Part shown: positions 3,002 through 22,188 of the stretch, piece by piece | How the letters are laid out: each line of letters begins with the position of its first letter | Position numbering within the stretch: position 1 is the first letter of the stretch | IMG/VR virus record: IMGVR_UViG_3300020442_004223 | Location: 1 to 22,280 of that record | Direction: 5' to 3' (one strand) | Source: a virus | DNA length: 22,280 bases | Position numbers and translations under genes: made by a program | Notes under the pieces: generated by a model | Databases searched by the model: none | Seen by the model: the letters and a program-made list of their open reading frames with translations, nothing else | Told to the model about the DNA's origin: nothing

Positions 3002-3163
3002 ATGGGTAAGAAAATGCCACCTGAGCTGTTAGCTCATTTCAAAAAAAAGCAAGAAGAGAAAGAAGGTTCTGATAAAGATCCTAAACAAACTGATAAGGAG
3101 AAGCGTAAAGACGCTGTCACAAAGGCACGTAAGCGCATGGAAGAGAAGAAGAAAAAAGATTAA
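3002..3163 (+). CDS. 53-aa highly charged, Lys-rich protein
   Basis: ATG 3002 to TAA 3161-3163 encodes 53 residues with almost uninterrupted Lys/Glu/Asp/Arg, likely a single charged helix (PELLAHFKKKQEEKEG ... KARKRMEEKKKKD). The ribosome site is excellent: AGGAGGAG ends a few bases before the ATG, inside the preceding gene. Small basic helical proteins in virion regions may bind nucleic acid or act as scaffolding, but nothing here proves that. It is the last gene before the putative promoter at 3175. Confidence 0.55.
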   Translation: MGKKMPPELLAHFKKKQEEKEGSDKDPKQTDKEKRKDAVTKARKRMEEKKKKD

Positions 3164-3169
3164 ACCAAC

Positions 3170-3207
3170 TCGGCTATAATATTTTTAACGCAACTCGCTA
3201 GTCAGAC
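3170..3207 (+). promoter_or_regulatory. Putative promoter for the large virion genes
   Basis: A perfect TATAAT is at 3175-3180 in a short AT-rich gap (3164-3207) before the GTG at 3208. No convincing -35 box is present at the right spacing. A phage-modified or extended -10 promoter is possible. The element also loosely resembles T4-type late promoters (TATAAATA). Confidence 0.3.
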
Positions 3208-3996
3208 GTGTCAAGTAGTAGTTCAAATAAACAGCCACTTATGGTGGATCGTCCAGCAACGACTTCTACGTTGCTGACCGTTGCCTCCGGACAGGATTTT
3301 GGTACGAGCCTTGTCCCCTCTGCTGTGGGTAACGCCACCAAGGTGTTTGACGTTGACTCTGCTAGCACGGACACTTCGATCTCGGGTGCTTACATCGATG
3401 AGATCTGGTTGACGTATTCCAAGCGTACGATTGAGTTCATCGACGCCAAATCTGCCACCACTGGAACTTACTCAGCTAATGGCACCACAATTACTGTCAC
3501 GATTACTGCAGGACACAACCTCCAGGTCGGGCAGAAGGTTTACTTGGACATTACGAGCCGTAGCTCGGGTACGGATCCGATTGACCAAGAGATCACAGTA
3601 AGTGCAGTTACCTCGACTACCTTTGAGGGCACGATTCCTAGCATTTCAGGTACGATCACTGGTAACGTCAGTGCTTATCTGCCGACTGACATCTGCTTCT
3701 ACCTTGTTAACGTCGGCACGGTCAGCAACACGAACCAGTTCTTCCCTGTGTTCACTGCAAGTGTCCCTTCGACCTACGAGAATCTCAGCTACAGCCTGAC
3801 TCTGAATCGCGACCTTCCTTTGATCAATCACCCTGTGGTTCAGGCTGGTGCCAACTTCGATAGTGCAAATAGCCAGATCGCACCGAAGCAACGCGGACTG
3901 ATGCTCAAGCGTGGCCAGGCTTTGTATGCAGCTGTGAGCGGTTCTACGGCTTTGACCAACGGTTTCTACGTCGGCATTCAAGGCGGCTTCTATTGA
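3208..3996 (+). CDS. Virion structural protein with one beta repeat module
   Basis: 262 aa from GTG 3208, Ser/Thr-rich, with no signal or membrane segment. Residues about 86-157 hold a 'GTYSANGTTITVTITAGHNL..G..VYLDITSRSSG' module that recurs three times in the next protein, so the two genes probably encode parts of the same particle structure. Flanking strands (TSISGAYIDEIWLTYSK; YENLSYSLTLNRDLPLINHPVV) look like the beta-sandwich of phage tail or neck proteins. The next gene starts 9 bases downstream and is probably co-transcribed. Exact position in the virion is unknown. Confidence 0.75.
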   Translation: MSSSSSNKQPLMVDRPATTSTLLTVASGQDFGTSLVPSAVGNATKVFDVDSASTDTSISGAYIDEIWLTYSKRTIEFIDAKSATTGTYSANGTTITVTITAGHNLQVGQKVYLDITSRSSGTDPIDQEITVSAVTSTTFEGTIPSISGTITGNVSAYLPTDICFYLVNVGTVSNTNQFFPVFTASVPSTYENLSYSLTLNRDLPLINHPVVQAGANFDSANSQIAPKQRGLMLKRGQALYAAVSGSTALTNGFYVGIQGGFY

Positions 3997-4005
3997 TTTA
4001 AGGTT

Positions 4006-6303
4006 ATGCCATTTGAAGTTGGTGGGTTTGGTTCTTCAAGCCAGAGCTTTGATGGCAAGTACGCAAAGAAGTTTGAGAAACAGACAAACTTTAAGCCGAA
4101 CACAGATATAAAATTTAAATCAAGGCTGTACGATTTTCAGCCTGATAATGAAGACTACGATAGTGAGACCAAGTTTTACAACAGGGACTCACTCTGGTCA
4201 CGTTGGCGACGTGGATACGATCTTTACAGCATTACCCAGACATACATGGGTACAAGTTCTAAGGATCGTAATACCCGTGGCGACTTCAGAATGTATGTAG
4301 CATTTCAGCAGTTCCCTGGAGTGTTCATTCCTGCCCGTGTTTTCACCTTTCCAAGCTCTACGCCTGAGATGGGAACGCAGATGGTGGGGATTCGTGACGC
4401 CAATAGCTTTAGTTTCTATAACTTTGGTCTTCCGATTACTGCCGTACGGTATTTAACGGGTGAAGTTTCGGGCACATACTCACAATCGGGGACGACTATA
4501 ACGGTTACTTCGAACGACCATGGTTTGGAAACAGGTGATGATGTCTTTTTAGATTTCACAACGGGTTCTGGTATTGATGCGACGCTTGCAATTACGGGGA
4601 CTACGCAAAATACGTTCACCTGTACCGCTGCAGCGTCTGTTACGACAAGTGGAAACGTTGTTTACCGCAAAGAAACTACTTTTAGTGACCTTAATTGGGA
4701 GCAAATGCGTGTTCAAATACGTTTTATCCCTACACCCGTCAACTTTTTTGCCGGCGAACGTCTTGCTGACCGTGTAATCGAACGTGATCCTGGCATTTTT
4801 GCAACTTATTCTCAGTCACTAACCACAATTACGGTCAACTGTACTGCTGCACACGGTCTAGCAACAGGTAATGAAGTTCTTATGGTGTTTACATCAGGGA
4901 CTGCGATACCGGGTCTATACGATGTGACTGTTACTAGCGCCACTCAGTTTACTGTGACATCAGTTGCGGCGGGCACTACGTTTGGTACTGCCATCGTTAA
5001 CCGAAGAATCCGTGGTTATGACTATGAAGACTACGTGGGTTACACAGTCACAGGCACTGACAAAGATACAAATGAGATCTTATTTCAGCGTGATGACAGC
5101 TATGGAGAAAAGGTCATTGATAATAAACCCACAACAGTCACTCCAGCGCATCGGGGCTTCAAAGTTAACAGATATCTGACCACTGAGGTTCGTTACCAGT
5201 GCAGTTGTCAAGATTTTATGCGTCGTGACAACTTTAATCTTTATTCGGAGGCGCAGAAACGTAAGTTCCCTGTCACTCAACTGAACAGTGTTAAGCCAGG
5301 ACAGCGAATCGACCGCGAAGGCGATCTAATTGACACCCGTGATGATATTGGTGTTTACAGTGACTTTGGATATGTAGCTGTAAATAACTTCTACAACCTT
5401 CCGACGTATGAGGACGGTAGTGAGTTCTCATATCCGAACCTGATGTACTATCAAACGCGGTGGTGCAAGCATATTTATGCTGCGATGTGGTCGATTGTCC
5501 ACGATGAAGGCAATGAACCCATCAATTTATCGGCTCTGTACAGCCAAGATGGTGGCCCGAATATCACAGTGACCGCCACGGACCATCGTCTCGGTGTTAA
5601 TACAAGGATTCGACTTGATTTTACGAGCGGAAGTGCGATTGACGGTGAATATACGGTCTCAGAAGTTGTAGATAAAGATAATTTCAAGATTGTTTACCCC
5701 TTCAGCAACACAACTCTGGGCTATTGCGTGGTGAGAAACCTTAAAAACCATGAATATGTAGGCAGTTGGCTGCTCGAGCCTAACGATCAGCCTCTAGGTG
5801 TGGCTTTAGAGCGTTTTTACGACAAGCTTGAGAAAGAAAACGACCGAATCCGTATGCAGGCTGAAAGAATGTCGATGATGAGTTACGGAATGCCCTGGTC
5901 AGGTGCAAAAGAAATTAGCGGTGACCGAAATCAGCCTACTCAGGTGGGAAATTTTGACGATAATTTAGTCAGCATGATGATGACCGACTCCATTCGTCGA
6001 AATGAAGCAGGTGAACTGGATAGAAGCGGCAGAACGGTCAATTCGACGATGAATATGCTGCAAATGATGAATAAATTGTTCAATATTGATCCAGATATCA
6101 TTCAGGACACCAAAATTGGCATGCTGGATCAGCCTCTGACTGATTACACCAGTGATTTCCAGTTTGGTGAGATCGACGGAGGTACTTATGTCAACGGTAC
6201 GCCTGTTTCAGTTGGTACTTCAAGTGAACTAGACTGTCGAACATATTCTCCCTTCTTACCTCAACCAATCTTGGTTGATTCTGGCCTCTATATCAATAAT
6301 TAA
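4006..6303 (+). CDS. Large virion protein with three beta repeats and CxC...CxH cluster
   Basis: 765 aa. Domains in order: an aromatic/basic N-terminal domain (1-150); repeat 1 (about 155-221); repeat 2 (263-335), both of the form 'TYSQS.TTITV....HGL.TG..V...FTSG.A..G.Y.VT'; a region with Cys399-x-Cys401 and, 85 residues later, Cys487-x-His489; repeat 3 (about 507-577) directly after it; a helical, Met-rich C-terminal region (590-700); and a final beta part. The repeats resemble beta modules sometimes matched to ubiquitin-E1 FCCH-type domains in phage proteins. CxC...CxH is the SWIM zinc-finger order but with a very long spacer. Probably a major tail/baseplate or neck component. The ATG at 4006 has AAGG seven bases upstream. 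Confidence 0.75.
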   Translation: MPFEVGGFGSSSQSFDGKYAKKFEKQTNFKPNTDIKFKSRLYDFQPDNEDYDSETKFYNRDSLWSRWRRGYDLYSITQTYMGTSSKDRNTRGDFRMYVAFQQFPGVFIPARVFTFPSSTPEMGTQMVGIRDANSFSFYNFGLPITAVRYLTGEVSGTYSQSGTTITVTSNDHGLETGDDVFLDFTTGSGIDATLAITGTTQNTFTCTAAASVTTSGNVVYRKETTFSDLNWEQMRVQIRFIPTPVNFFAGERLADRVIERDPGIFATYSQSLTTITVNCTAAHGLATGNEVLMVFTSGTAIPGLYDVTVTSATQFTVTSVAAGTTFGTAIVNRRIRGYDYEDYVGYTVTGTDKDTNEILFQRDDSYGEKVIDNKPTTVTPAHRGFKVNRYLTTEVRYQCSCQDFMRRDNFNLYSEAQKRKFPVTQLNSVKPGQRIDREGDLIDTRDDIGVYSDFGYVAVNNFYNLPTYEDGSEFSYPNLMYYQTRWCKHIYAAMWSIVHDEGNEPINLSALYSQDGGPNITVTATDHRLGVNTRIRLDFTSGSAIDGEYTVSEVVDKDNFKIVYPFSNTTLGYCVVRNLKNHEYVGSWLLEPNDQPLGVALERFYDKLEKENDRIRMQAERMSMMSYGMPWSGAKEISGDRNQPTQVGNFDDNLVSMMMTDSIRRNEAGELDRSGRTVNSTMNMLQMMNKLFNIDPDIIQDTKIGMLDQPLTDYTSDFQFGEIDGGTYVNGTPVSVGTSSELDCRTYSPFLPQPILVDSGLYINN

Positions 6304-9843: not shown

Positions 9844-10185
9844 ATGGCAAACACTTTTAAGATCGCTACTAAGTCAAGCCTGGTAACCACGGCTATCACT
9901 GACACCGCCACTAATATCTTGACTGCTGGCGCCAGTGCGACTCACGTTCTTCTGAGTATCTTGGTCTCGAACAAGACCGGCACCAGTGCTGACGTTGATA
10001 TTTATCTCGTGACAAATACGGGTGATGACATCTATATTATTAGGAACGCCCCTGTTCCTGGAGGTGGATCTTTGGAGATCATCTCAGGTTCTAAAATCAT
10101 CATGGAATCCAGCGATGTGTTGAGGGCACGTGCTGACACGGCCACTGCGTTGGATCTTTCTGTTAGCTACCTTGAGCAAACCTAA
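9844..10185 (+). CDS. Small beta-sandwich virion protein
   Basis: 113 aa with regular beta strands ('ATHVLLSILVSNKTGTSADVDIYLVTNTGDDIYIIRNAPVPGGGSLEIISG...DLSVSYLEQT') and no signal peptide. The pattern, with a central 'P(V/I)PGG-S-L-E' turn and a C-terminal 'SVSYLE', is that of small phage structural proteins found next to fibres. Function in the particle is not known. The ATG at 9844 follows the previous stop almost directly (TGATATG). Its stop codon overlaps the strong ribosome site of the next gene. Confidence 0.65.
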   Translation: MANTFKIATKSSLVTTAITDTATNILTAGASATHVLLSILVSNKTGTSADVDIYLVTNTGDDIYIIRNAPVPGGGSLEIISGSKIIMESSDVLRARADTATALDLSVSYLEQT

Positions 10186-10199: not shown

Positions 10200-11237
10200 A
10201 TGCCATTAACTGATATTGATGGACAGCGGTTAGGGGATAGTGTTGCTGACAAGCTTGGTAATAGAAACCTGATCATCAATGGTGCGATGCAAGTGTCGCA
10301 GCGAGGCACGAGTTTCACTTCGCAAACTTCAGGAGCTTATTATTTAGACAGATTCCGGGCACATACTTTTAACTTGGGTAGTGGTGTCTATCAAGTAGAT
10401 CAAAGCACTGATGCCCCTGATGGGTTTGAAAAAAGCTTCAAGCTTAGTTGCACGACAGCCGATACTTCTACTGATGCAAACGCACAGATGAGCGTTTATC
10501 AAGCCTTGGAAGGCTACGATACAAGTTTTTTAAAGTATTTTCAAGCAAATCCGGATACAGTAACTATTAGTTTTTATGTAAAATCTAATCGGACTGGTAC
10601 ATTTTCTGCTGCGCTTAAATTAAGCGACAACGGTAGCTCGTGGGGGGACGGAAATACTAGAGTTTACAATTTTACTTATTCTATTTCTACTGCAGATACT
10701 TGGGAACGTAAAACCGCCTCTATCACCCTTGATTCAGCAACAACTGAGACAAAGGTGATCAATGAGAATTTTGCTGTTGCGATACAATGGTGGCAGCTTG
10801 CAGGAACAAGTAGAGACGGTGCTACGGCAAATAGTTGGGTAAACAACACAAATACAGCAACTGATTCTGATAATCTTCGTTTGTTAGAAAGTACAAACAA
10901 CAACTGGTTTATCACTGGTGTCCAGCTAGAAGTCGGCAACACCGCGACACCGTTTGAGCAAAGGAGCTTCGATTATGAGCTTGCTAGGTGTCAGCGGTAT
11001 TACTGGCAAGTTAATGGAGTTGGAAGAGTTTACTGCAATCAGTGGAACTCAAATCGGAGTACAGCCACTTTTCATCACCCTGTTACAATGCGTGTGACGC
11101 CAACAGGCAGCGGAACAGTTACAGGTGCCAATAGAATGACCAATGCAGACGCAAATAGCAGGACGCACACTACTTTTTATGTAGACTCAAATATATCAGC
11201 TTATGTTGACTATGCAAACTTTGATGCTGAGCTTTGA
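10200..11237 (+). CDS. Receptor-binding-type tail fibre, paralogue 1
   Basis: 345 aa. Residues about 19-38 carry 'GNRNLIINGAMQVSQRGTSF', the start of a phage tail-tip module with a carbohydrate-binding-like beta-sandwich. It is followed by 'SISFYVKS'-type strands ('TVTISFYVKSNRTGTF'), 'TADTWERKTASITLD', and 'NWFITGVQLEVGNTATPFEQRSFDYELARCQRYYW'. The last 75 residues vary freely among paralogues and probably form the receptor-contact tip. It ends in Ala-Glu-Leu, whose codons precede the next gene's start. Paralogues begin at 11628 (C-terminal part) and 16171. The body is AT-rich (18 of 60 G+C at 10561-10620) compared with the next gene. Confidence 0.8.
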   Translation: MPLTDIDGQRLGDSVADKLGNRNLIINGAMQVSQRGTSFTSQTSGAYYLDRFRAHTFNLGSGVYQVDQSTDAPDGFEKSFKLSCTTADTSTDANAQMSVYQALEGYDTSFLKYFQANPDTVTISFYVKSNRTGTFSAALKLSDNGSSWGDGNTRVYNFTYSISTADTWERKTASITLDSATTETKVINENFAVAIQWWQLAGTSRDGATANSWVNNTNTATDSDNLRLLESTNNNWFITGVQLEVGNTATPFEQRSFDYELARCQRYYWQVNGVGRVYCNQWNSNRSTATFHHPVTMRVTPTGSGTVTGANRMTNADANSRTHTTFYVDSNISAYVDYANFDAEL

Positions 11238-11239
11238 CA

Positions 11240-11614
11240 ATGTATAAACACTTTCCCACAGACGCGCCTGAGGCACCTGTGCAGTGCGTTTGCCGTATAG
11301 CTGACGGAGCGATGATTCCGTTTGACCCCGGCAACCGCGATTACCAGGAATACCTTGAGTGGGTCGCTGAAGGCAACACGCCTGAACCTGCTGAAGATAC
11401 TAACACTTGGGAGCATGTACGTATAAAACGTAACGAACTCCTCCAAGAATCCGACTGGACAATGATCCCTGGCTGCACTGTTGACCAGGCTCAATGGGCT
11501 GCTTATCGTCAGACCCTTCGCGACATTCCGACCACCTATGCAGAGACTGGTCCGGAATCAGTCGTCTGGCCGCGTAAACCCTCTACGTCAGGCCCTAATA
11601 CAATAGATGAATAA
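11240..11614 (+). CDS. Tail-fibre assembly chaperone, full two-module form
   Basis: 124 aa from the ATG at 11240, two bases after the fibre stop (a TTG at 11234 is less likely). Module 1 is 'NRDYQEYLEWVAEGNTPEPAED'. Module 2 is 'IKRNELLQESDWTMIPGC...QWAAYRQTLRDIPTTY...VWPRKP', the pattern of the phage tail assembly chaperone family. Such proteins bind the C-terminal tip of a fibre and aid its folding or trimerisation. The gene directly follows its probable client, the 10200 fibre. The other array members carry only one of the two modules, which makes this the complete reference copy. Confidence 0.8.
   Translation: MYKHFPTDAPEAPVQCVCRIADGAMIPFDPGNRDYQEYLEWVAEGNTPEPAEDTNTWEHVRIKRNELLQESDWTMIPGCTVDQAQWAAYRQTLRDIPTTYAETGPESVVWPRKPSTSGPNTIDE
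11351..11383 (+). repeat. 33-bp chaperone-module repeat, copy 1
   Basis: Encodes YLEWVAEGNTP. It differs by a single base from copy 2 (13403-13435) and by a single base from copy 3 (17343-17375). Near-identity of DNA, not only of protein, suggests recent duplication or gene conversion. Confidence 0.85.
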
Positions 11615-11627
11615 ATAGATCTACATC

Positions 11628-13277
11628 ATGGGATATATCGGCCAGAGCCCGCAGATCGCTCAGAGTACGTATCAAAGCATTGATGATATTAGCTCCAGCT
11701 TTAATGGATCTACGACTTCGTTCGCCCTTCAAGTTGGTGGTGTTTCACCAGTTCCCTTCCCGATCGCTTCGGAGAACTGCCTGATTTCTGTCGGTGGTGT
11801 CATCCAGGAACCAGATGGAACGGGAACTAACGGCTTCCAGCTGACTGGTACGAACATCGTCTTCAGTGCGGCTCCAGCGTCCGGTCAGTCCTTCTTCGGT
11901 GTCATTCTTGCTGGCGCCGACTATGTGACAGCAGGCCATGCATTCCCTGATGGTGATGCCGGTACGCCCTCGATTACCTTCAACCAGGACCTTGATACTG
12001 GCCTATTCCGAGGCGGTACTGGGATCACGTCTGTCAGCTCGAACAACAATAAGATTGCTGATTTTGGGCCTACTGCAATTGTCTTCAATGAAGACGGTGA
12101 TGATGTTGATTTCCGTGTAGAAGGCGATACGAAAGCAAACTTATTTGTCGTCGATGCAGGTAATGACAAGATTACTCTTGATGGTGATCTAGAGCCTACG
12201 ACGATTCACGGGAATACTTTTCCAACTGCCGGTACGTTAAGTAATCGCAACCTGTTTATCAATGGGGAGCACAAGATAGATCAAAGAAATGAGGGATCTG
12301 CGGTCTCCTTAAGCAGCACACAAAAATTTATCACTGACAGATGGGCATCAAAAATTCAAGGCGGCGCGGCTACTGGTCAGCAGGTCACCGATGTTCCTAG
12401 TGGAAAAGGTTTTGCAAGAAGTTTTAAATTTGATGTCACAACTGCCGATACATCGTTGGGTTCAAATGATGAAATTTGGTTCCAGCAGCGGATCGAAGCA
12501 CAAAATTTGACGCGATTGCGTTACGGCACTTCTGAAGCTCAATCGATAACAGTTTCTTTCTGGGTTAAATCTGCTCTTACTGGTGATTTTGGTTTCTTTA
12601 TTTATCAATCTGATGCTACAAGGGCATACCAAACTACTTACAATATTGCTACGGCGAATACTTGGGAATACAAAACAATTACAATCCCTGGAGATACTTC
12701 AGGCACTATAAATGATGATTTTGGTACTGGTTTTGAAATTAGATGGTATTTAGGTATTGGCAGCAGTAAGGGAGGATCTTCAAATCAAAATGCTTGGGGT
12801 TCTAATGCTACTAATCGTCATCCAACAAGTACGAACCTGATGGCCTCTACCAGCAATGATTGGTTGATCACTGGTATTCAGCTAGAACTTGGCGAAAAGG
12901 CAACACCGTATGAGCACCTAAACGTCAGCGATGAGCTTGATAAATGTTATCGGTACTGCCAAAGGTATGGGGGTGGCAGGATAGCAATGGGCATCTGGGT
13001 CAATAATTCCGGAGGCGACCGGGCAATTATTAACCATCATTTGCATACGCCAATGCGTGCTACTCCTGCTATTGACGCTGTTACCAACGGTAATTTACTT
13101 GTTGAGGATGTAGCATGGTATTCAGTGACATCAACGCCTACCATTCAAGGAGAATCGAATGTAAGGATGGCGGTGTTCACCGTAATAACCAGCACGACCG
13201 GTGTCGTTACTTCATCCGGTCAGACCCCAGCAGTTTGGGGTAATGGTGCGGATGTAACTCTTGAAGCGGAGCTTTGA
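11628..13277 (+). CDS. Composite tail fibre: attachment modules plus receptor-binding module, paralogue 2
   Basis: 549 aa. Residues 1-100 form an N-terminal module (GYIGQSP..., 'IDDISSSFNGSTTSFAL', 'ISVGGVIQEP', 'FFGVILAG') also found in the 13513 protein. Residues 112-200 are fibre strand repeats ('ITFNQDLDTGLFRGGTG', 'VEGDTKANLFVVDAGNDKITLDGDL'). Residues 205-447 form the NRNLFING receptor-binding-type domain shared with the 10200 and 16171 proteins, ending in 'ITGIQLELGEKATPYEHLNVSDELDKCYRYCQRY'; a unique tip of 100 residues follows. G+C falls from about 53% in the N-terminal half to about 35% after 12,240, which suggests domain swapping. It ends Ala-Glu-Leu. Confidence 0.82.
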   Translation: MGYIGQSPQIAQSTYQSIDDISSSFNGSTTSFALQVGGVSPVPFPIASENCLISVGGVIQEPDGTGTNGFQLTGTNIVFSAAPASGQSFFGVILAGADYVTAGHAFPDGDAGTPSITFNQDLDTGLFRGGTGITSVSSNNNKIADFGPTAIVFNEDGDDVDFRVEGDTKANLFVVDAGNDKITLDGDLEPTTIHGNTFPTAGTLSNRNLFINGEHKIDQRNEGSAVSLSSTQKFITDRWASKIQGGAATGQQVTDVPSGKGFARSFKFDVTTADTSLGSNDEIWFQQRIEAQNLTRLRYGTSEAQSITVSFWVKSALTGDFGFFIYQSDATRAYQTTYNIATANTWEYKTITIPGDTSGTINDDFGTGFEIRWYLGIGSSKGGSSNQNAWGSNATNRHPTSTNLMASTSNDWLITGIQLELGEKATPYEHLNVSDELDKCYRYCQRYGGGRIAMGIWVNNSGGDRAIINHHLHTPMRATPAIDAVTNGNLLVEDVAWYSVTSTPTIQGESNVRMAVFTVITSTTGVVTSSGQTPAVWGNGADVTLEAEL

Positions 13278-13279
13278 TT

Positions 13280-13462
13280 ATGACTATTCAATACTACTTG
13301 ATAACTAATCCTTCTCCTACCGCTATCGGAGACCCGAGTGTCGGTATTGTAGGCACGTGTATTTCAATTCCTCCAGACCCCGATAACACTCGCTACCAGA
13401 AATATCTTGAGTGGGTCGCTGAAGGCAACACGCCTCTCCCTGCCGACCCCGGAGAGGAGTAA
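13280..13462 (+). CDS. Mini tail-fibre chaperone, N-module only
   Basis: 60 aa from ATG 13280, two bases after the fibre TGA; GGAG at 13268-13271, within the fibre's Ala-Glu-Leu codons, is its Shine-Dalgarno. The C-terminal 'TRYQKYLEWVAEGNTPLPADPGEE' matches module 1 of the full chaperone at 11240. Module 2 (RNELL...WAAYRQTLRDIP) is missing altogether, and a stop follows the acidic tail. It could be a functional short chaperone specific for the 11628 tip, or a truncated remnant. Repetition of the same form at 17223 favours function. Its stop codon lies within a 9-bp hairpin. Confidence 0.65.
   Translation: MTIQYYLITNPSPTAIGDPSVGIVGTCISIPPDPDNTRYQKYLEWVAEGNTPLPADPGEE
13403..13435 (+). repeat. 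33-bp chaperone-module repeat, copy 2
   Basis: Same YLEWVAEGNTP-coding block as 11351-11383, with TAT in place of TAC as the only difference. Confidence 0.85.
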
Positions 13463-13483
13463 GGACAAAAGACTTACTCCTTT
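13455..13483 (+). terminator. Hairpin over the mini-chaperone stop, weak terminator
   Basis: AGGAGTAAG (13455-13463) pairs perfectly with CTTACTCCT (13473-13481) around a nine-base loop. Only three T follow, so termination would be partial; transcript-end protection or attenuation is possible. The gene's TAA is within the left arm. Confidence 0.45.
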
Positions 13484-13512
13484 AGAATAGAGTGATCAAG
13501 AGGTAGTTCACT

Positions 13513-14010
13513 GTGCCATACATCGGTAGAGGCGTAGCACGTGGTCAGAACCGTGAGATCGATGACATCTCCGGTTCTTTCAACGGAACGCTAGCAACAT
13601 TTGACCTCGAGGTAAGTGGGATTGCTGTTACTCCTGCTAGTACCTCTCAGCTCACGGTGTCAGTCGGTGGTGTAATTCAGAACCCAAGTGTCGACTACAC
13701 CGTAGCCAGCAGTCAGATCACTTTTACGACGCCCCCGGGGTCAGGTCTTTCCTTCTTTGCAGTCATGCAAGGGGACTCGGTCGACATCAATACCCCGGCT
13801 GACGGAACGGTCACTGAAGCAAAGCTAGCGTCAAACTTTACTGGCGCCACAGGTGGTGCAGGTAACCACGTCTTTTTCTTGAATGAGCAAACGGTAGATA
13901 CGAGTTACACTATTCCTACGAACCGGAACGCCCATAGTGCGGGGCCGATTACAATTAATTCAGGGGTCACGGTTACTATTCCGTCATCTTCAAGTTGGGT
14001 GGTGATTTGA
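13513..14010 (+). CDS. Short tail-fibre protein with shared attachment module
   Basis: 165 aa from GTG 13513, supported by AGAGGT about nine bases upstream. The N-terminal module ('PYIGRGVARGQ...IDDISGSFNGTLATFDL', 'SVGGVIQNPSVDYTV', 'FTTPPGSGLSFFAVM') is homologous to the N-terminus of the 11628 fibre. The C-terminus ('YTIPTNRNAHSAGPITINSGVTVTIPSSSSWVVI') is a common fibre-end motif that probably seals the trimer. It carries no tip domain of its own, so it may be an adaptor onto which the S74 fibre downstream docks. The next gene starts after 8 bases with a good ribosome site. Confidence 0.75.
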   Translation: MPYIGRGVARGQNREIDDISGSFNGTLATFDLEVSGIAVTPASTSQLTVSVGGVIQNPSVDYTVASSQITFTTPPGSGLSFFAVMQGDSVDINTPADGTVTEAKLASNFTGATGGAGNHVFFLNEQTVDTSYTIPTNRNAHSAGPITINSGVTVTIPSSSSWVVI

Positions 14011-14018
14011 GGTAAATT

Positions 14019-15185
14019 ATGGCAATTACTATCAGCGGAACAGACGGCATCACGCCACTTAAAGTCACAAATGGAACAGCTGCGGCTCCTGCGTTGACAG
14101 GTGATGATACCGATAGCGGTATTTTCTTTGGTACGAACGAAGTAAATATTTCAACAAACGGCAGCACTGCGGCAAAGGTTGATAGCTCGGGGCAGCTGTT
14201 AGTTGGTACGTCTACTGCGCGTAGTAATACGTTTAATCAATCCCTCAGTCAGGCGTTTCAAATTGAAGGTACTACCAGCAGCGCTAGAGGAGCTGCAATT
14301 TTTTCATCTAGCAGCAATAGTGGAGAGGGTGGCTATTTAATTTTGGGCCACCAAAGGAGTGGATCTATAGGCGGGAATACGGCTGTTATCGATGATAGTG
14401 AATTAGGCTTTATTGGTTTTCAAGGGAATGATGGAGCTGAGTTTGTTGATGCGGCCAGAATATCTGCATTTGTTGACAGCACTCCTGGCTCAGACGACAT
14501 GCCAACCCGCTTAGTGTTTTCCACTACTGCGGATGGGGCGTCTACTCCGACGGGTCGGATGGTGATTAACCGTCTTGGCAATACAAACATTGGAAGTGTT
14601 CTTGAAAACGCTGACACGCGATTGTATGTTCAAGGCGCAGGTACTGGAAGCGCAAGCAGCACCATTGTTGGTCGCAACTCAGCTGGCACTATTCTGCATA
14701 TTTTAAGAGATGACGGAGCTTTTAATACTGGTATAGCTGCTGTTTCACCTTACAACTTAACGACTGTATCTGGAGCAAATATGTTCCAGAACTCTGACGG
14801 TTTTGTGTACAGGTCAACATCTTCTCGCAAATTTAAGACAAATATCGAGACGCTTGAGGATAGTTATGCAGATGCTATTTTAAACATTGAGCCAGTATGG
14901 TATCGCTCTACTGCGCCAGGGGATACAAAACATTCTGATTGGAGTCACTACGGTTTTATTGCTGAAGACGTAGCGGCGGTTGATCCTCGCCTTGTTTTCT
15001 GGAAAACGCATGAAGCAGAATCAACAGAGGATGGAACGATCAATGAAGTTGAATTAGACGAGCCTATTGCCGAAGGCGTTCAGTACGACAGATTTGTGCC
15101 TCACTTGTTGAATCTGATTAAACGTCAACATCAAGCGATTGAAACGTTAGAAACTAAAGTTGCAGCACTGGAGGCAGCAGAATGA
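14019..15185 (+). CDS. Tail fibre with C-terminal S74 intramolecular chaperone
   Basis: 388 aa. Residues 1-65 are fibre strand repeats ('DDTDSGIFFGTNEVNISTNG...KVDSSGQLLVGTS'). The middle has 'ADAARISAFVDSTPGSDDMPTRLVFSTTADGASTPTGRM', a module found in many phage fibres. From about 265 the peptidase S74-type domain starts: 'SSRKFKTNIETLEDSYADAILNIEPVWY', 'HYGFIAEDV', 'YDRFVPHLLNLIKRQHQAIETLETKVAALEAAE' (terminal coiled coil). In this family a Ser with a Lys five residues on (here Ser268/Lys273) makes the chaperone cleave itself off after trimer folding. 'TGAGGT' precedes the ATG. The stop overlaps the next start (ATGA). Confidence 0.85.
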   Translation: MAITISGTDGITPLKVTNGTAAAPALTGDDTDSGIFFGTNEVNISTNGSTAAKVDSSGQLLVGTSTARSNTFNQSLSQAFQIEGTTSSARGAAIFSSSSNSGEGGYLILGHQRSGSIGGNTAVIDDSELGFIGFQGNDGAEFVDAARISAFVDSTPGSDDMPTRLVFSTTADGASTPTGRMVINRLGNTNIGSVLENADTRLYVQGAGTGSASSTIVGRNSAGTILHILRDDGAFNTGIAAVSPYNLTTVSGANMFQNSDGFVYRSTSSRKFKTNIETLEDSYADAILNIEPVWYRSTAPGDTKHSDWSHYGFIAEDVAAVDPRLVFWKTHEAESTEDGTINEVELDEPIAEGVQYDRFVPHLLNLIKRQHQAIETLETKVAALEAAE

Positions 15186-15796
15186 CCTTAAGACTTAACG
15201 GAAGCAGCTCAGGCTTTACTGAGATCGATGCCCCAGCTGCAGCGGGTAGTAACACCCTTACGTTGCCAACCAGCAACGGCAGTGCCTTTCAGTCTTTAAG
15301 GAACGGATCAACTGCAGGATCTTTAGTTTTTGGAGATACAGCAATTCTTCAGATCGTTTATGCAGAAACAACAACAGAAGCAGAAATCACCGGAACTACT
15401 TATACGGATACAAATTTGACGGCAAACATAACGCCGCTAAAGTCTGACAGTGATATTTTAGTGATTGTCAACCAGCAATACCTCTCGCTAGCTGCGTCCA
15501 CTTTTTTTACGGGTCTTGGCATCAGGATTTTAAGAGGCTCAACCACTGTCTACGATCCTGTTGGTGATGCAACTGGTCCGTTTGATGTGTTTTCACAAGC
15601 ATCAGGTGTAACAGGGGTAAATCTTTACGAACATAAAGCCTTGATTTACAATGACGACAACAGGTCGGCAGGTACTTCTCAGCTGACATACAAAACACAG
15701 GCTAGAAATTATGCCAGTACTAGTACAGCGTTTTTTCAATATGACGGTGGCTTGGTCAATGGAACGTCAACAATCACACTTGTGGAGCTAGGCTGA
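15182..15796 (+). CDS. Tail-fibre tip-like protein
   Basis: 204 aa, ATG overlapping the S74 fibre's TGA by four bases (ATGA), with GGAG upstream within the coiled-coil codons. Residues 1-50 are short fibre strands ('LRLNGSSSGFTEIDAPAAAGSNTLTLPTSNG'). Residues 55-204 form one beta domain ('ILQIVYAETTTEAEITGTTYTDTNLTANITPLKSDSDILVIVNQQYL...STITLVELG'), which resembles C-terminal domains of cyanophage-type fibres. It is probably a separate receptor-contact subunit. The terminal Val-Glu-Leu-Gly codons provide GGAG for the chaperone gene that follows in a TGATG overlap. Confidence 0.7.
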   Translation: MTLRLNGSSSGFTEIDAPAAAGSNTLTLPTSNGSAFQSLRNGSTAGSLVFGDTAILQIVYAETTTEAEITGTTYTDTNLTANITPLKSDSDILVIVNQQYLSLAASTFFTGLGIRILRGSTTVYDPVGDATGPFDVFSQASGVTGVNLYEHKALIYNDDNRSAGTSQLTYKTQARNYASTSTAFFQYDGGLVNGTSTITLVELG

Positions 15797-16128
15797 TGTC
15801 CTTAAGATCTGACGCAATCAGAAGTCTTGCCCCTGGGGCCGATTTCGGAATCATTGGTGGAGATCTTGCCAATCTGATTTGGCACTCTACTGAAATTGAT
15901 CAACCCTCAGTTGCTGAAATTGAAGCGGAAATGAGCCGTCTTCAATCTTTGATTCCTATGAAGGAACTCCGTGCTAAGCGCAATCAACTGCTTGCGGAGA
16001 CTGACTATCTGGCGTTGTCTGACGTTACCTTGAGCGAAGACATGCGGACATATCGCCAAGCGCTCAGGGATCTTCCTGACAAGACCAGCGATCCAGCAAA
16101 CCCCACCTGGCCTGTGAAGCCTAGCTGA
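15796..16128 (+). CDS. Tail-fibre assembly chaperone, C-module form
   Basis: 110 aa, starting at the A shared with the previous TGA. The N-terminal part is distinct ('GADFGIIGGDLANLIWHSTEIDQPSVAEIEAEMSRL'). The C-terminal half, 'LRAKRNQLLAETDYLALSDVTLSEDMRTYRQALRDLPDKT...TWPVKPS', is module 2 of the phage tail assembly chaperone family, aligning with 'IKRNELLQESDWTM...WAAYRQTLRDIP...WPRKP' of the 11240 protein. The WVAEGNTP module is absent. It is expected to help fold the tip encoded by 15182. It is thus the converse of the N-module-only genes at 13280 and 17223. Confidence 0.75.
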   Translation: MSLRSDAIRSLAPGADFGIIGGDLANLIWHSTEIDQPSVAEIEAEMSRLQSLIPMKELRAKRNQLLAETDYLALSDVTLSEDMRTYRQALRDLPDKTSDPANPTWPVKPS

Positions 16129-16170
16129 ATAAATAAAACAACTTATAATAGACCTAACTAGAGGTAAGCG
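16128..16170 (+). promoter_or_regulatory. Putative late-type promoter and ribosome site for the 16171 fibre
   Basis: The 42-bp gap holds AATAAATA at 16128-16135, one base off the T4-type late promoter TATAAATA, then TATAAT at 16144-16149, then AGAGGT at 16160-16165 as the ribosome site before ATG 16171. A similar AATAAATA at 11610-11617 precedes the 11628 fibre but overlaps the end of its upstream gene. Confidence 0.4.
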
Positions 16171-17220
16171 ATGTCGACGCTCAAGGTTACGAATATCGAA
16201 TCACCGAGTGGCGGCGGTGTTAATGCCAAGATTACGGATATTAACGGTGGTCAGCTGAGTAATCGCAATCTGATTATCAACGGTGACATGCGCATTGCGC
16301 AACGGGGAACAAGCTTTTCCACTAATAATGATAGAAATTTTGGAGTAGATCGATTTGCGTGCAATGCAAGCGCAAACACCACTATTACTTATTCACAAGA
16401 GACAGATGCTCCAGCAGGCTTCTCAAATTCATTAAAAGCAACGATTACTTCAGCGAACTCGTCTAGGCAAGCTGGAGACACAAATTATGTGTTGCAAGCT
16501 ATTGAGGGCTATAATTCTGCAAACCTAAACTTTGGCAGTTCAAATGCAAAGACATTTACGCTTTCCTTTTATGTGAAATCCAGCGTTACGGGGACTTACG
16601 GGATTGGTTTTGCAAACAATGGTAGCACTCGCGTTCGTCATACGTCATACACAATTAACAGTGCAAACACATGGGAAAGGAAGACAATTACTGTTCCCGG
16701 CGACACATCAGGAACTTGGTTGACTAATAGCGGTATTGGGTTGGTTCCTATATGGGATCTTGGCATGGGTACTAATTATGAAAGCGATGTAATTGATACA
16801 TGGGACGCCGGTGAGGACTACAGGAAATCGTCTTACGTGAATCTTTCTCTGACGGGCTCTGCTACTTGGCAACTCACTGGAGTGCAATTAGAAGTTGGCG
16901 ATGTCGCCACAGTATTTGAGCACAGAAACATTACCGATGAGATTGCTAAATGCCAAAGGTATTACCAAAATGGAGCATGTTGGATTATCGGGTTTGGCAG
17001 CACAGGTGCATTTGTCGGCAGCGCTCAAAATTTCAATACTTATATGCGAGCAAATAATCCAAATGTTGTTCTTGGTACTCCTTCGGAAAATGTAAACTTT
17101 GGTTCTATTGGTGCTCCAGCCGTTTTTGGAAACGGTTTTAGATTGTTTGGGACTATTACAACAGGAACAAACATTAACGCTTACTATTCAAATACCTTTA
17201 CGGCCAGCGCGGAGCTTTAA
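16171..17220 (+). CDS. Receptor-binding-type tail fibre, paralogue 3
   Basis: 349 aa. The N-terminal 30 residues ('STLKVTNIESPSGGGVNAKITDINGG') form a short fibre-attachment piece. 'LSNRNLIINGDMRIAQRGTSFS' then opens the same receptor-binding-type domain as in the 10200 and 11628 fibres, with 'TFTLSFYVKSSVTGTYGIGF', 'TWERKTITVPGDTSGTW' and 'WQLTGVQLEVGDVATVFEHRNITDEIAKCQRYYQ'. The last 75 residues are the variable tip. It ends Ser-Ala-Glu-Leu, followed two bases later by the mini-chaperone. Three such paralogues within 7 kb suggest alternative or multiple receptor specificities. Confidence 0.8.
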   Translation: MSTLKVTNIESPSGGGVNAKITDINGGQLSNRNLIINGDMRIAQRGTSFSTNNDRNFGVDRFACNASANTTITYSQETDAPAGFSNSLKATITSANSSRQAGDTNYVLQAIEGYNSANLNFGSSNAKTFTLSFYVKSSVTGTYGIGFANNGSTRVRHTSYTINSANTWERKTITVPGDTSGTWLTNSGIGLVPIWDLGMGTNYESDVIDTWDAGEDYRKSSYVNLSLTGSATWQLTGVQLEVGDVATVFEHRNITDEIAKCQRYYQNGACWIIGFGSTGAFVGSAQNFNTYMRANNPNVVLGTPSENVNFGSIGAPAVFGNGFRLFGTITTGTNINAYYSNTFTASAEL

Positions 17221-17222
17221 TC

Positions 17223-17399
17223 ATGTCTTATCAGATCACACTTAGTCTTGACGGCTCTGAATACGGAGTCAAAAAAGTATTAGAGGATGGCAGCGTTTTA
17301 TATTTGTCAGGTACTGACAATGGCACTCCTGAATGGGCGCAGTACCTTGAGTGGGTTGCTGAAGGCAACACGCCTGACCCTGCTGATTCTGAAGAATGA
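17223..17399 (+). CDS. Mini tail-fibre chaperone, N-module only (58 aa)
   Basis: ATG 17223 to TGA 17397-17399 gives 58 residues. The N-terminus, 'SYQITLSLDGSEYGVKKVLEDGSVLYL', differs from the other chaperones. The C-terminal 'WAQYLEWVAEGNTPDPADSEE' repeats module 1 of the 11240 chaperone. Module 2 is missing, as in the 13280 gene. GGAG of the fibre's Ala-Glu-Leu codons is its ribosome site, and its ATG is two bases past the fibre TAA. It overlaps the next gene by four bases (ATGA). The short length makes it easy to overlook, but position and motif make it a convincing gene. Confidence 0.7.
   Translation: MSYQITLSLDGSEYGVKKVLEDGSVLYLSGTDNGTPEWAQYLEWVAEGNTPDPADSEE
17343..17375 (+). repeat. 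33-bp chaperone-module repeat, copy 3
   Basis: Same YLEWVAEGNTP-coding block as 11351-11383, with GTT in place of GTC as the only difference. Confidence 0.85.
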
Positions 17400-17686: not shown

Positions 17687-18409
17687 ATGCCTGATATACC
17701 TGACATAGGTATCAACAGCCTCCCGCCTGTCAGGATTCACAGCTGGATGGTCAAACCTCCAGTGGTAAGCGCCATCGAGGTTCCTGTCACAGTGGATCTC
17801 GGTACACCAATAATTCAACTACCAGGCTGTGTCAAAGCACATACTCAGTCTGGTAAATCTAATTCCATCATGGAGGACGACCCCAATGGGGTTGTGACTC
17901 ACTGCGACGCAGGGGCTCCTTCTTTTACACCTTTGGATTACACCCCAGAGGATTTGGTTTACACCACAGAGGCACCAGTTCCTTCGTACAAGCCTGAACC
18001 ACCGGCACTACCAGATGCTCCGGAAATCCCTGGACCCGCACCAGTCCCAGGTACAAAGTCGGAAAAATCAAAAACAGAAACGAAACAACCTCCAGAGAAA
18101 GTCGAAGAAAAGCCAGTAAAAACAGAAGTTTCTGAACCCACTGTCACGATCACAGATTATCTGCCCTCCCCTCAGCAGGTGACAACGACTGCATCTATTG
18201 CTGTTGTCGCGACCTCAGCGGCCCTCCTAGCAAAGCCGCTTGCCGACTTGCTTCTAAAGCTGGTGAAACCTGCTGTGAAGAAGGCAATGAAGAAGATTTC
18301 TGCGTTGCGTGGGAAGCCCCAGAAAATGGAATCACTTCAAGAGAGACGTCTTGCCCAGCGTGATCGGAATCGTGCTCTTCGTGAGTTACGGCGGGCGTTA
18401 AAGAAATAG
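17687..18409 (+). CDS. Pro-rich protein with C-terminal membrane segment
   Basis: 240 aa, starting at the base after the preceding stop. The N-terminal domain (1-95; 'PPVRIHSWMVKPPVVSAIEVPVTVDLG', with Cys48 and Cys73) looks like a conserved globular part typical of marine cyanophage hypothetical proteins. Residues 96-150 are a Pro/Lys/Glu linker. Residues about 166-188 ('TTTASIAVVATSAALLAKPL') are a likely membrane helix, and the last 50 residues are strongly Arg/Lys rich ('RRLAQRDRNRALRELRRALKK'). Function unknown. Its last 215 bp overlap the 3' end of the reverse-strand gene ending at 18195. Confidence 0.65.
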   Translation: MPDIPDIGINSLPPVRIHSWMVKPPVVSAIEVPVTVDLGTPIIQLPGCVKAHTQSGKSNSIMEDDPNGVVTHCDAGAPSFTPLDYTPEDLVYTTEAPVPSYKPEPPALPDAPEIPGPAPVPGTKSEKSKTETKQPPEKVEEKPVKTEVSEPTVTITDYLPSPQQVTTTASIAVVATSAALLAKPLADLLLKLVKPAVKKAMKKISALRGKPQKMESLQERRLAQRDRNRALRELRRALKK

Positions 18410-19196
18410 GGTGAACGTGTGGTGCCACTGTTTCATTTGGCATCGTCACGACGATGTCAGCACAGACTTTTGCGAATTGACTACCTGGCCTAAAAGTAAT
18501 TCCGGCCTTAGCTAATTCACCGCAATTTTTTAATCTAGCGATCTCAAAATCCAATCTTCGATTAGCAAGCATCTGCTCTTGCAATGCTATCTGTGCTTCT
18601 GCTGCACGTTTACATCGAGCTTGCAGGCCTCCATCTAAAGGTATTGATAAGGTTGCAGACAATCCTCCGTTCCAACTATAGTTACTTTTTTGTCCAGTTC
18701 TAATTGGACGATGGTATAAAATCTTGCCCGGATTATCAATCACTCCATCATCATTTAGGTCGCTTGTATCATAAACAGGATCGTTATAGTAATCTTCGTA
18801 AGGGAGCTGGAACGATCCAGTTCTTGTCATAAATGGCGTCACATTTAACGTGGGGCCTTGACATTGGATGCCGTTCCCGTAGGTGTTAGTGATATAAGGA
18901 CCCTGAAGTACTTGGATCGCCTGGTTTGTCACGCTCCCACTACTATTTGCAATAGGGTTAGCAGTAGCACTAACGCCACCGACATCAGCAGCCAACGAAG
19001 GATTAACAAATAGAGAAAGTACACCTACTGTGAGAAGATGGAAGTACTTTCCGTGACGCTTCTTATCTCCGTAGTTCTGTTTATAATCGTGTGATTTGCA
19101 AGCCCCGGAGCTTGCAGCGTCTCCGTAAACTGAAAGCCTTTCGTATTGTCGACGATCGACCAGCTGGGCTTGTTTGCGGAATCCAGTGTTGTCCAT
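18195..19196 (-). CDS. Exported protein with internal signal peptide and Ca-loop motif
   Basis: The frame gives 333 aa from the only standard start (ATG at 19196). A typical signal peptide lies inside it at residues 45-70 ('KKRHGKYFHLLTVGVLSLFVNPSLAA|DVGG'). The first 44 codons overlap the preceding gene in another frame and do not look like a leader, so the true start is unclear; no ATG, GTG or TTG occurs just before the leader. The mature part has 'DLNDDGVIDN', an EF-hand/dockerin-like calcium loop, four Cys, and a helical region ('AEAQIALQEQMLANRRLDFEIARLKNCGELA'). The last 71 codons overlap the forward 17687 gene. Probably periplasmic or outer-envelope; function unknown. Confidence 0.6.
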   Translation of the reverse strand: MDNTGFRKQAQLVDRRQYERLSVYGDAASSGACKSHDYKQNYGDKKRHGKYFHLLTVGVLSLFVNPSLAADVGGVSATANPIANSSGSVTNQAIQVLQGPYITNTYGNGIQCQGPTLNVTPFMTRTGSFQLPYEDYYNDPVYDTSDLNDDGVIDNPGKILYHRPIRTGQKSNYSWNGGLSATLSIPLDGGLQARCKRAAEAQIALQEQMLANRRLDFEIARLKNCGELAKAGITFRPGSQFAKVCADIVVTMPNETVAPHVHPISLTPAVTHEEHDSDHAGQDVSLEVIPFSGASHATQKSSSLPSSQQVSPALEASRQAALLGGPLRSRQQQ

Positions 19197-21295: not shown

Positions 21296-21529
21296 ATGCT
21301 TGGTGATATTAATAAACAGCGTTATAAAGCCATAGAGCTGGTCGCTGAAGAAGTTCGAATCCCCTCCAAGGATCTCCGGTTGAACGCGATTGTTCGTGAT
21401 ATTCCTGATGAAGATCTGAAGTGGGTTCTGGATAAGCTTCACTACTTCCTCCTTAAAATCCTGGAGGATGCTGAGTACGATCCAGCTGAAGAGGAGTGTG
21501 ATTTTGAAGCTCTAGGTTTGACTGACTAG
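21296..21529 (+). CDS. Small acidic helical protein
   Basis: 77 aa from ATG 21296, one base after the preceding TAA; an upstream start at 21236 in the same frame would overlap the previous gene by 59 bp and adds a sequence unlike the rest. The product is helical ('DINKQRYKAIELVAEEV', 'DEDLKWVLDKLHYFLLKILEDAEYD') with an acidic tail (EEECDFEALGLTD). I recognise no family. Its TAG stop is part of a CTAG that is also the stop of the converging oxygenase gene. Confidence 0.6.
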   Translation: MLGDINKQRYKAIELVAEEVRIPSKDLRLNAIVRDIPDEDLKWVLDKLHYFLLKILEDAEYDPAEEECDFEALGLTD

Positions 21530-21536
21530 AGCTTTT
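21507..21536. terminator. Bidirectional hairpin terminator over shared CTAG stop
   Basis: AAGCTCTAG (21507-21515) pairs perfectly with CTAGAGCTT (21526-21534) around a ten-base loop, and four T run to 21536 on the forward strand. It sits exactly where the forward 77-aa gene and the reverse oxygenase gene meet. The T-run is short, so efficiency may be modest, mainly for forward transcripts. Confidence 0.55.
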
Positions 21537-22188
21537 CCCAGTAGCAAGGATCCATGATGTAGTTCTCGATGTCGCCACTTCCAGGCGGCTCGGAACCGAC
21601 AACGATCAGGTCGTAGGAGATCGAAAAACGTGGCTTCTCACCGATATAATCCTCGACCGAGTGTTGCATGCTCGCTGGGAACATTACTAAACGGTGTTTA
21701 ATAGGCGCCAAACGCACTTCGTCGTAGTGCAGATCGGTGTCATTGTGCACCAGAGGTAGGTAGCTCATGCAGTTTTCAGCCTCGAACTTCAAGGCACCAG
21801 AGTCGTTGTCCGGTTCATTGAGGTAAAAAACGCAGCTGATGATGGCGTTTTTGTGGACGTGCGAAGGTATTGAACCTGAGTTTTCGCACACGACAGGCCA
21901 GGATTTCTGTGCATAGATATTGACCTTCTCAAGGTCAACTCCCATCTCGTAAAGATATTCTTCCGCAGCTTCGCCGATCTGTTCGTTCAACCAATTAAAT
22001 TCAGGCTGGAGGTGTACGAGATAGTCATCACGCACATCACCAGTAAGGTTTGCTGATGAGTCGTTATATTCGCCTAAGTTTTTCTTATAAAAACGCTGCA
22101 CATAATCTTCCATTCCTGCAGCAATATCTTGCTCAGGTTCCAGATCTTTGATGCAGATAGGGATCGGAAAAGCGGTGACTACTGCCAT
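21526..22188 (-). CDS. 2OG-Fe(II) oxygenase superfamily protein
   Basis: 220 aa. The C-terminal half has the pattern of the phage/marine-bacterial 2OG-Fe(II) oxygenase family: 'SGSIPSHVHKNAIISCVFYLNEPDNDSGALKFE' (candidate iron ligands His110/His112), 'HRLVMFPASMQHSVEDYIGEKPRFSISYDL' (distal ligand His176, 2OG-binding Arg187). Such enzymes hydroxylate or oxidatively modify proteins, nucleic acids or small molecules; the phage members' substrates are unknown. The N-terminus ('VVTAFPIPICIKDL') is a typical leader strand of this family, not a signal peptide. Its TAG overlaps the TAG of the converging gene. Transcription comes from the tRNA side; a TATAAAAA on the reverse strand at 22205-22198 is a possible late-type promoter. 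Confidence 0.8.
   Translation of the reverse strand: MAVVTAFPIPICIKDLEPEQDIAAGMEDYVQRFYKKNLGEYNDSSANLTGDVRDDYLVHLQPEFNWLNEQIGEAAEEYLYEMGVDLEKVNIYAQKSWPVVCENSGSIPSHVHKNAIISCVFYLNEPDNDSGALKFEAENCMSYLPLVHNDTDLHYDEVRLAPIKHRLVMFPASMQHSVEDYIGEKPRFSISYDLIVVGSEPPGSGDIENYIMDPCYWEKL

Follow-up and report, generated by a model that had tools for sequence, protein, structure and literature searches.

Stand-alone N-domains of a putative Tfa-type tail-fibre chaperone and a tip-linked exchange cassette in a viral fibre array

Can the two halves of a tail-fibre chaperone be separated in nature, and if so, what becomes of the half that stands alone? This question is raised by IMG/VR virus record IMGVR_UViG_3300020442_004223, positions 1 to 22,280, read on one strand (this whole stretch of 22,280 nucleotides is called the window below). 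It carries an array of fibre and tip genes with four small putative chaperone genes, named here by their start positions 11240, 13280, 15796 and 17223 (Table 1). An initial annotation had assigned two modules to 11240, only the first of them, with the motif YLEWVAEGNTP, to 13280 and 17223, and only the second to 15796, each gene lying behind its own fibre or tip gene. We consider it likely that the short genes encode free-standing, functional N-domains of a tail-fibre chaperone of the Tfa type, with an exchange cassette linked to the fibre tip and a C-module bound to the first slot of the array.

The four open reading frames (ORFs) are intact and located at the expected positions, and the full 11240 protein, searched against the window, matched exactly these four sites. 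The first module, here termed A, follows the consensus IPxDxxNxDYQEYLEWxAEGNTPEPAD, in which the tryptophan is invariant in 23 aligned copies; it is without a Pfam family, and PHROG 20370, to which no function is assigned, matches it in all three A genes of the window. The second module, C1, is PF16778 (Phage_tail_APC, curated cut-off of 26.6 bits), found by profile scan in 11240 and 15796, while the same scan assigned neither PF16778 nor any other Pfam family to 13280 and 17223. The position of each gene directly 3′ of a fibre or tip gene was also seen in relatives. The initial annotation was therefore correct for 11240, for the two short genes and for the gene order, and partly so for 15796, which has the PF16778 motif and is missing the A motif, but is not a stand-alone C-module. 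A bare C-module at 15796 was ruled out by its own type-B N-module (SLKPxAxW...YSGLxW...PTESEIDAEVTRL) over the first ~50 residues. A second type of C-module, C2, ends in KAVKDxNPKP and was seen joined to type B. Three kinds of folding aid occur in the array: partner proteins of the A or A+C1 form, one partner of the B+C1 form and an intramolecular S74 chaperone.

The structure model of 11240, in which three predicted strands and one helix precede three more helices, is compatible with a two-domain chaperone. A variable N-part and a conserved helical C-part were found in 11240 by model and in 15796 by sequence, and the A-only genes correspond to the N-part alone. The C1 profile was matched by 2KZ6, a solved PF16778 member (E=6e-19), and a sequence search with A against solved structures gave nothing credible. 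In the literature collection searched, no paper had AEGNTP together with tail fiber and chaperone.

In order to examine which fibres the A module accompanies, a fibre model was built on the even-numbered loci and applied to the odd-numbered ones plus the window, with near-copies across the halves retained. In these held-out loci, a fibre of the class was upstream of 76 of 78 A or A+C1 genes, compared to 0 of 56 other chaperones, and an A or A+C1 gene came next after 99 of 102 fibres of the class. Thus the suggestion that the A module pairs with one fibre class is supported. The upstream gene ended in EL for 98 of 106 A-only genes and 65 of 74 A+C1 genes, and for 0 of 43 C1-without-A genes. Genes preceding type-B chaperones encode proteins of ~200 residues, and the A fibre class was never among them. 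A fold search with a model of the fibre read through into A predicted a CBM4-like carbohydrate-binding-module (CBM) domain in the A-class fibre, the other matches being general carbohydrate-binding modules and other beta-sandwiches.

The C-terminal AEL of these fibres overlaps with a possible translation signal. Its glutamate codon was GAG in 60% of cases (88/147), compared to 28% at other glutamate codons, and this terminal GAG (for example at 13266-13282) probably doubles as a Shine-Dalgarno site helping translation of the A gene. The AEL end purely as a ribosome-binding site was ruled out: 59 of 147 AEL-ending fibres use GAA and 59 of 147 have no Shine-Dalgarno core near the stop codon, which argues that AEL is kept as a protein motif in its own right.

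The variable part of A was correlated with the fibre tip, taken as the last ~150 residues (Mantel test, r 0.16 and 0.19, p 0.001), and not significantly with the fibre middle domain (r 0.02 and 0.06). Covariation with the tip would also suit an A-only protein that is a tip accessory, staying on or capping the fibre and aiding or shielding receptor binding with no role in folding. The missing oligomerising C-domain fits such a cap, and where PMC10579305 deals with these proteins, Mu Tfa is described as remaining on the fibre and the chaperone of Alteromonas phage A5 as dispensable for the production of active fibres and a proposed transient cap. However, A is fused to C1 in other phages, which points to a shared chaperone-like role, and we regard a pure accessory as rather unlikely.

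Models of A, C1, B and C2 were built from 198 IMG/VR loci, which had been sampled by the A motif or by window protein P0002. The A-module model matched 239 of 10,944 ORFs of the related loci at E < 1e-5 and one more at E 0.1-1, with none between, so the module is not a chance resemblance. Among complete distinct proteins of the 198 loci, 106 had A alone (median 57 residues), 73 A+C1, 41 B+C1, 38 B+C2, 30 C2 with other N-parts and one C1 with a further kind of N-part, whereas no bare C1 protein was present. The proposed separability of the two modules is therefore realised in nature, by 106 A-only proteins. A-only genes were also found in isolates of several phage groups. In Synechococcus phage S-T4 (L205), an A-only gene occupies an unannotated gap at 4001-4174, directly after a fibre ending in EAEL, and the same isolate has an A-like start joined to C2, as judged by eye. 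Acidovorax phage ACP17 (L212) has, at 3049-3462, an A module with another C-terminal part that is neither C1 nor C2.

Short genes lacking C1 could be decayed or truncated copies of A+C1, an outcome that the initial annotation itself had named as fatal to its proposal. No C remnant was detected in any frame within 450 nucleotides (nt) downstream of 112 A-only genes, 102 of which had at least 200 nt of downstream sequence. Lengths are tight around the median, five close A-only pairs gave ratios of nonsynonymous to synonymous substitution (dN/dS) of 0.14-0.35, indicating purifying selection on the A protein, and isolates of several phage groups carry such genes. Decay is thus refuted as far as these data go and can hardly be credited.

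It had also been proposed that the full-length copy supplies the C function in trans. In its general form, A-only proteins would join full-length A+C1, which would serve every fibre of the array with the C function. The window and its close relatives do hold one A+C1 and one B+C1 gene alongside two A-only genes, and A+C1 is the first gene, upstream of A-only, in every array having both forms. On the other hand, P-TIM68, MEP401, Venkman, MedDCM-OCT-S45-C4 and ctXG6705, all deposited as complete, have one or two A-only genes each; neither C1 nor C2 was detected in these five records, and PF02413 (Caudo_TAP) and PF14301 (DUF4376) were each found in 0 of 5 at E <= 1. Supply in trans is therefore not borne out as a requirement and is unlikely as a general rule; we give the proposal as a whole little probability, although it may still act where both forms coexist.

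How A modules come to stand with and without C1 is suggested by comparison with relatives. Between the window and its close relative L005, blocks of 93-99% identity lie between exchanged segments. Near-identity ends at 10284 in slot 1, at 12243 in slot 2 (the start of NRN) and at 16291 in slot 3, at or just after NRN-L-ING, and it restarts within the A core at 11330 (30 nt before the W codon), at 13366 (inside the 13280 gene) and at 17341 (11 nt before the W codon). L006 and L007 showed similar slot-1 borders, while identity with L008 restarts at 11447, within the C1 part. An ungapped border scan of 1030 pairs was put to loose use only, with indels distorting the result for about half of the pairs. 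Judged from these alignments, an exchange cassette runs from NRN-L-ING to the WVAEGNTP core and comprises the distal part of the fibre together with the variable beginning of the A gene. Beyond the initial annotation, this makes the two motifs the borders of a cassette that splits the chaperone between its halves.

C1 remains with the first slot of the array while the cassette moves. A homologue of the MANTFK protein directly preceded the fibre for 55 of 58 A+C1 genes, compared to 1 of 84 A-only genes. When the A-only or A+C1 label was placed on a fibre tree (FastTree), 40 changes were counted against a shuffled mean of 47.5, a nearly random distribution, with at least 16 of the changes forced by well-supported branches. 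Since C1 stays at the first slot, near-identical A modules exist with and without it: near-same cassettes of tip and A were found in both states in L110 (A) and L127 (A+C1), L006 (A+C1) and L127 (A), L093 (A) and L098 (A+C1), and L014 (A+C1) and L046 (A). A further pair, L088/L156, was left out, the L088 gene sitting at a contig end. In the four pairs, DNA identity is mostly 80-95% as far as the end of A and then drops directly to the unrelated level; the similarity starts ~500-600 nt upstream of that end in three pairs and ~1200 nt upstream of it in L006/L127.

Codon usage was compared between slots of the same genome. Codon identity was 0.69 in the A core and 0.64 at the fibre junction (ITGVQLEVG), compared to 0.41-0.46 elsewhere, and synonymous agreement of this kind is expected of segments exchanged between slots. 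For the window alone the contrast gave a Fisher p of 4e-10 with non-independent pairs, and for nine pairs compared with other genomes matched for GC content, neither core nor junction was significant (p 0.10 and 0.19). The rise in codon identity only in the A core and fibre junction, where exchange borders fall, could mean that the A core persists chiefly as DNA, as a homology arm for recombination, while its protein does little. This is very improbable, because the core is conserved as protein across genomes with differing codons (W invariant, G and N at least 90%), variation in A beyond the core follows that of the tip, and purifying selection acts on the entire gene.

Other segments of the array also differ between relatives. 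The middle and S74 part of the fibre at 14019-15185 departs from window/L005 near-identity at 14567-15134, indicating that this fibre end is exchanged too. Compared with L098, the tip gene drops out along with the complete B+C1 chaperone (15285-16132), between two conserved flanks; the type-B tip and chaperone seem to be exchanged as a whole pair, unlike A+C1.

Taken as a mechanism, stand-alone N-domains with a tip-linked cassette would work as follows. As the sequences show, the A module belongs to one fibre class, with a carbohydrate-binding-like domain and a C-terminus that is usually [AS]EL, and the fibre distal part is swapped together with a variable stretch of ~30 codons at the start of the A gene as a single cassette. 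Its entry point is near NRN-L-ING, although several transfers between slots begin near ITGVQLEVG, and its exit is in the YLEWVAEGNTP core. C1 is left behind at the first slot, after the MANTFK protein, and certain phages have A alone with no recognised C-module. A may dock on the fibre tip in the manner of the Mu Tfa and Pam3 gp25 N-domains (PMC9608196), C1 being presumably the helical, oligomerising half; A alone would be enough to fold or cap the tip for this fibre class, and C1 would add something needed at slot 1. More tentatively, and with less than even confidence, a free domain of ~57 residues might suffice by itself as a complete chaperone or cap for carbohydrate-binding phage fibres of a widespread class. 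Tip specificity would then be swapped by recombination where the fibre-binding half of the chaperone meets the assembly half; every tip would come with a recognition half of its own and rely on the assembly half that the slot provides, or on none.

Several points weigh against the reading of the short genes as functional N-domains. The way the loci were sampled biases the proportions of module combinations, which are no census, and the Mantel correlations of the variable A part with the fibre tip are weak. Docking of A on the tip is argued by analogy from Mu Tfa and Pam3 gp25, and since a fold search with the 11240 model gave no PDB match at E <= 0.001 (the best were chemokines, E about 1), likeness of A to the N-domains of either is unsupported. 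The five A-only records may also have an unrecognised C partner.

Table 1. Features of the fibre array in the window
Feature	Position	Strand	Matches and remarks
113-residue conserved MANTFK...SYLEQT protein, marker of first fibre slot	9844..10185	+	
Slot-1 fibre, NRNLIING near start, C-terminus DAEL	10200..11237	+	phrog_4492 tail fiber protein E=4e-51
A+C1 chaperone, 124 residues	11240..11614	+	A module ~24-53; PF16778 58-114, 61.3 bits; phrog_20370 over residues 13-76
Slot-1 A core, 3′ border of exchange cassette	11330..11394	+	L005 restart; 80-nt repeat family D1
Slot-2 fibre, NRNLFING at residue 206, C-terminus EAEL	11628..13277	+	phrog_4492 E=8e-47, phrog_18673
A-only gene, 60 residues	13280..13462	+	phrog_20370 E=4e-9; no Pfam
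Short fibre/attachment-like protein	13513..14010	+	phrog_18673 tail fiber protein E=1e-32
Fibre with intramolecular S74 chaperone (residues 268-326)	14019..15185	+	PF13884 Peptidase_S74 35.5 bits, cut-off 22
~200-residue tip protein, end VELG, partner of type-B chaperone	15182..15796	+	like other genes before type-B chaperones
B+C1 chaperone, 110 residues	15796..16128	+	type-B N-module ~residues 1-50; PF16778 56-109, 58.7 bits
Slot-3 fibre, NRNLIING at residue 31, C-terminus SAEL	16171..17220	+	phrog_4492 E=2e-56
A-only gene, 58 residues	17223..17399	+	phrog_20370 E=1.5e-5; no Pfam

Downstream of the array, two convergent genes at 17687-18409 (+) and 18195-19196 (-) overlap by ~215 nt on opposite strands, with strong PHROG matches (phrog_570, E=3e-67, and phrog_848, E=4e-120), and a 2OG-Fe(II) oxygenase-like gene is located at 21526-22188 (-) (phrog_81, E=8e-31).

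Few structures underlie the two-domain model of tail-fibre chaperones, and the loci described here offer a natural domain-removal experiment, in which a near-same tip and N-module occur with and without the C-domain and some phages have the N-domain alone. With such cassettes and phages at hand, which half is needed for folding becomes directly testable. Our results also name the borders of specificity exchange between fibre slots and between phages, suggest a role for the unannotated families PHROG 20370 and 34019, and flag tiny genes that are annotated as hypothetical or, as in S-T4, missed.

In the Mu Tfa family, as outlined in PMC9608196 and PMC10579305 (PDB 5YVQ), the gene directly follows the fibre gene, a variable N-domain binds the C-terminal region of the fibre and a conserved C-domain serves assembly. 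Here, in contrast, the N-module also exists as a separate gene, the chaperone is divided between its halves by fibre exchange, and the five A-only records searched have no Caudo_TAP (PF02413). Cyanophage Pam3 gp25 is a single protein of 162 residues serving a TNF-like fibre, in which residues 1-55 bind the fibre gp24 and, after a linker, C-terminal helices trimerise (PMC9608196). The A-only proteins are about the size of this 55-residue N-domain, although A fibres have a predicted CBM-like domain. With respect to PF16778, the C1 parts of 11240 and 15796 belong to the family, whereas the A-only genes are without any part of it. In Alteromonas phages V22 and A5, a fibre with its cognate chaperone is common to unrelated phages and the chaperone is sometimes dispensable (PMC7289586, PMC10579305). 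The A5 chaperone is a reminder that chaperoning and capping both occur among such proteins (PMC10579305), and A alone may fold or cap the fibre. Whole fibre-chaperone pairs are shared in V22 and A5, whereas the border in our array lies inside the chaperone gene. In systems of the Mu G segment type, a change of the variable fibre end is accompanied by a change of its chaperone. To our knowledge, whole chaperone genes are involved in those systems. Only the N-module part moves here, and no inversion was seen, none having been looked for. Invertible or exchangeable segments of this type, with fibre end and chaperone, are mentioned in PMC10579305. Compared to these systems, the array described here is a new, naturally split variant of the modular Tfa-type chaperones.

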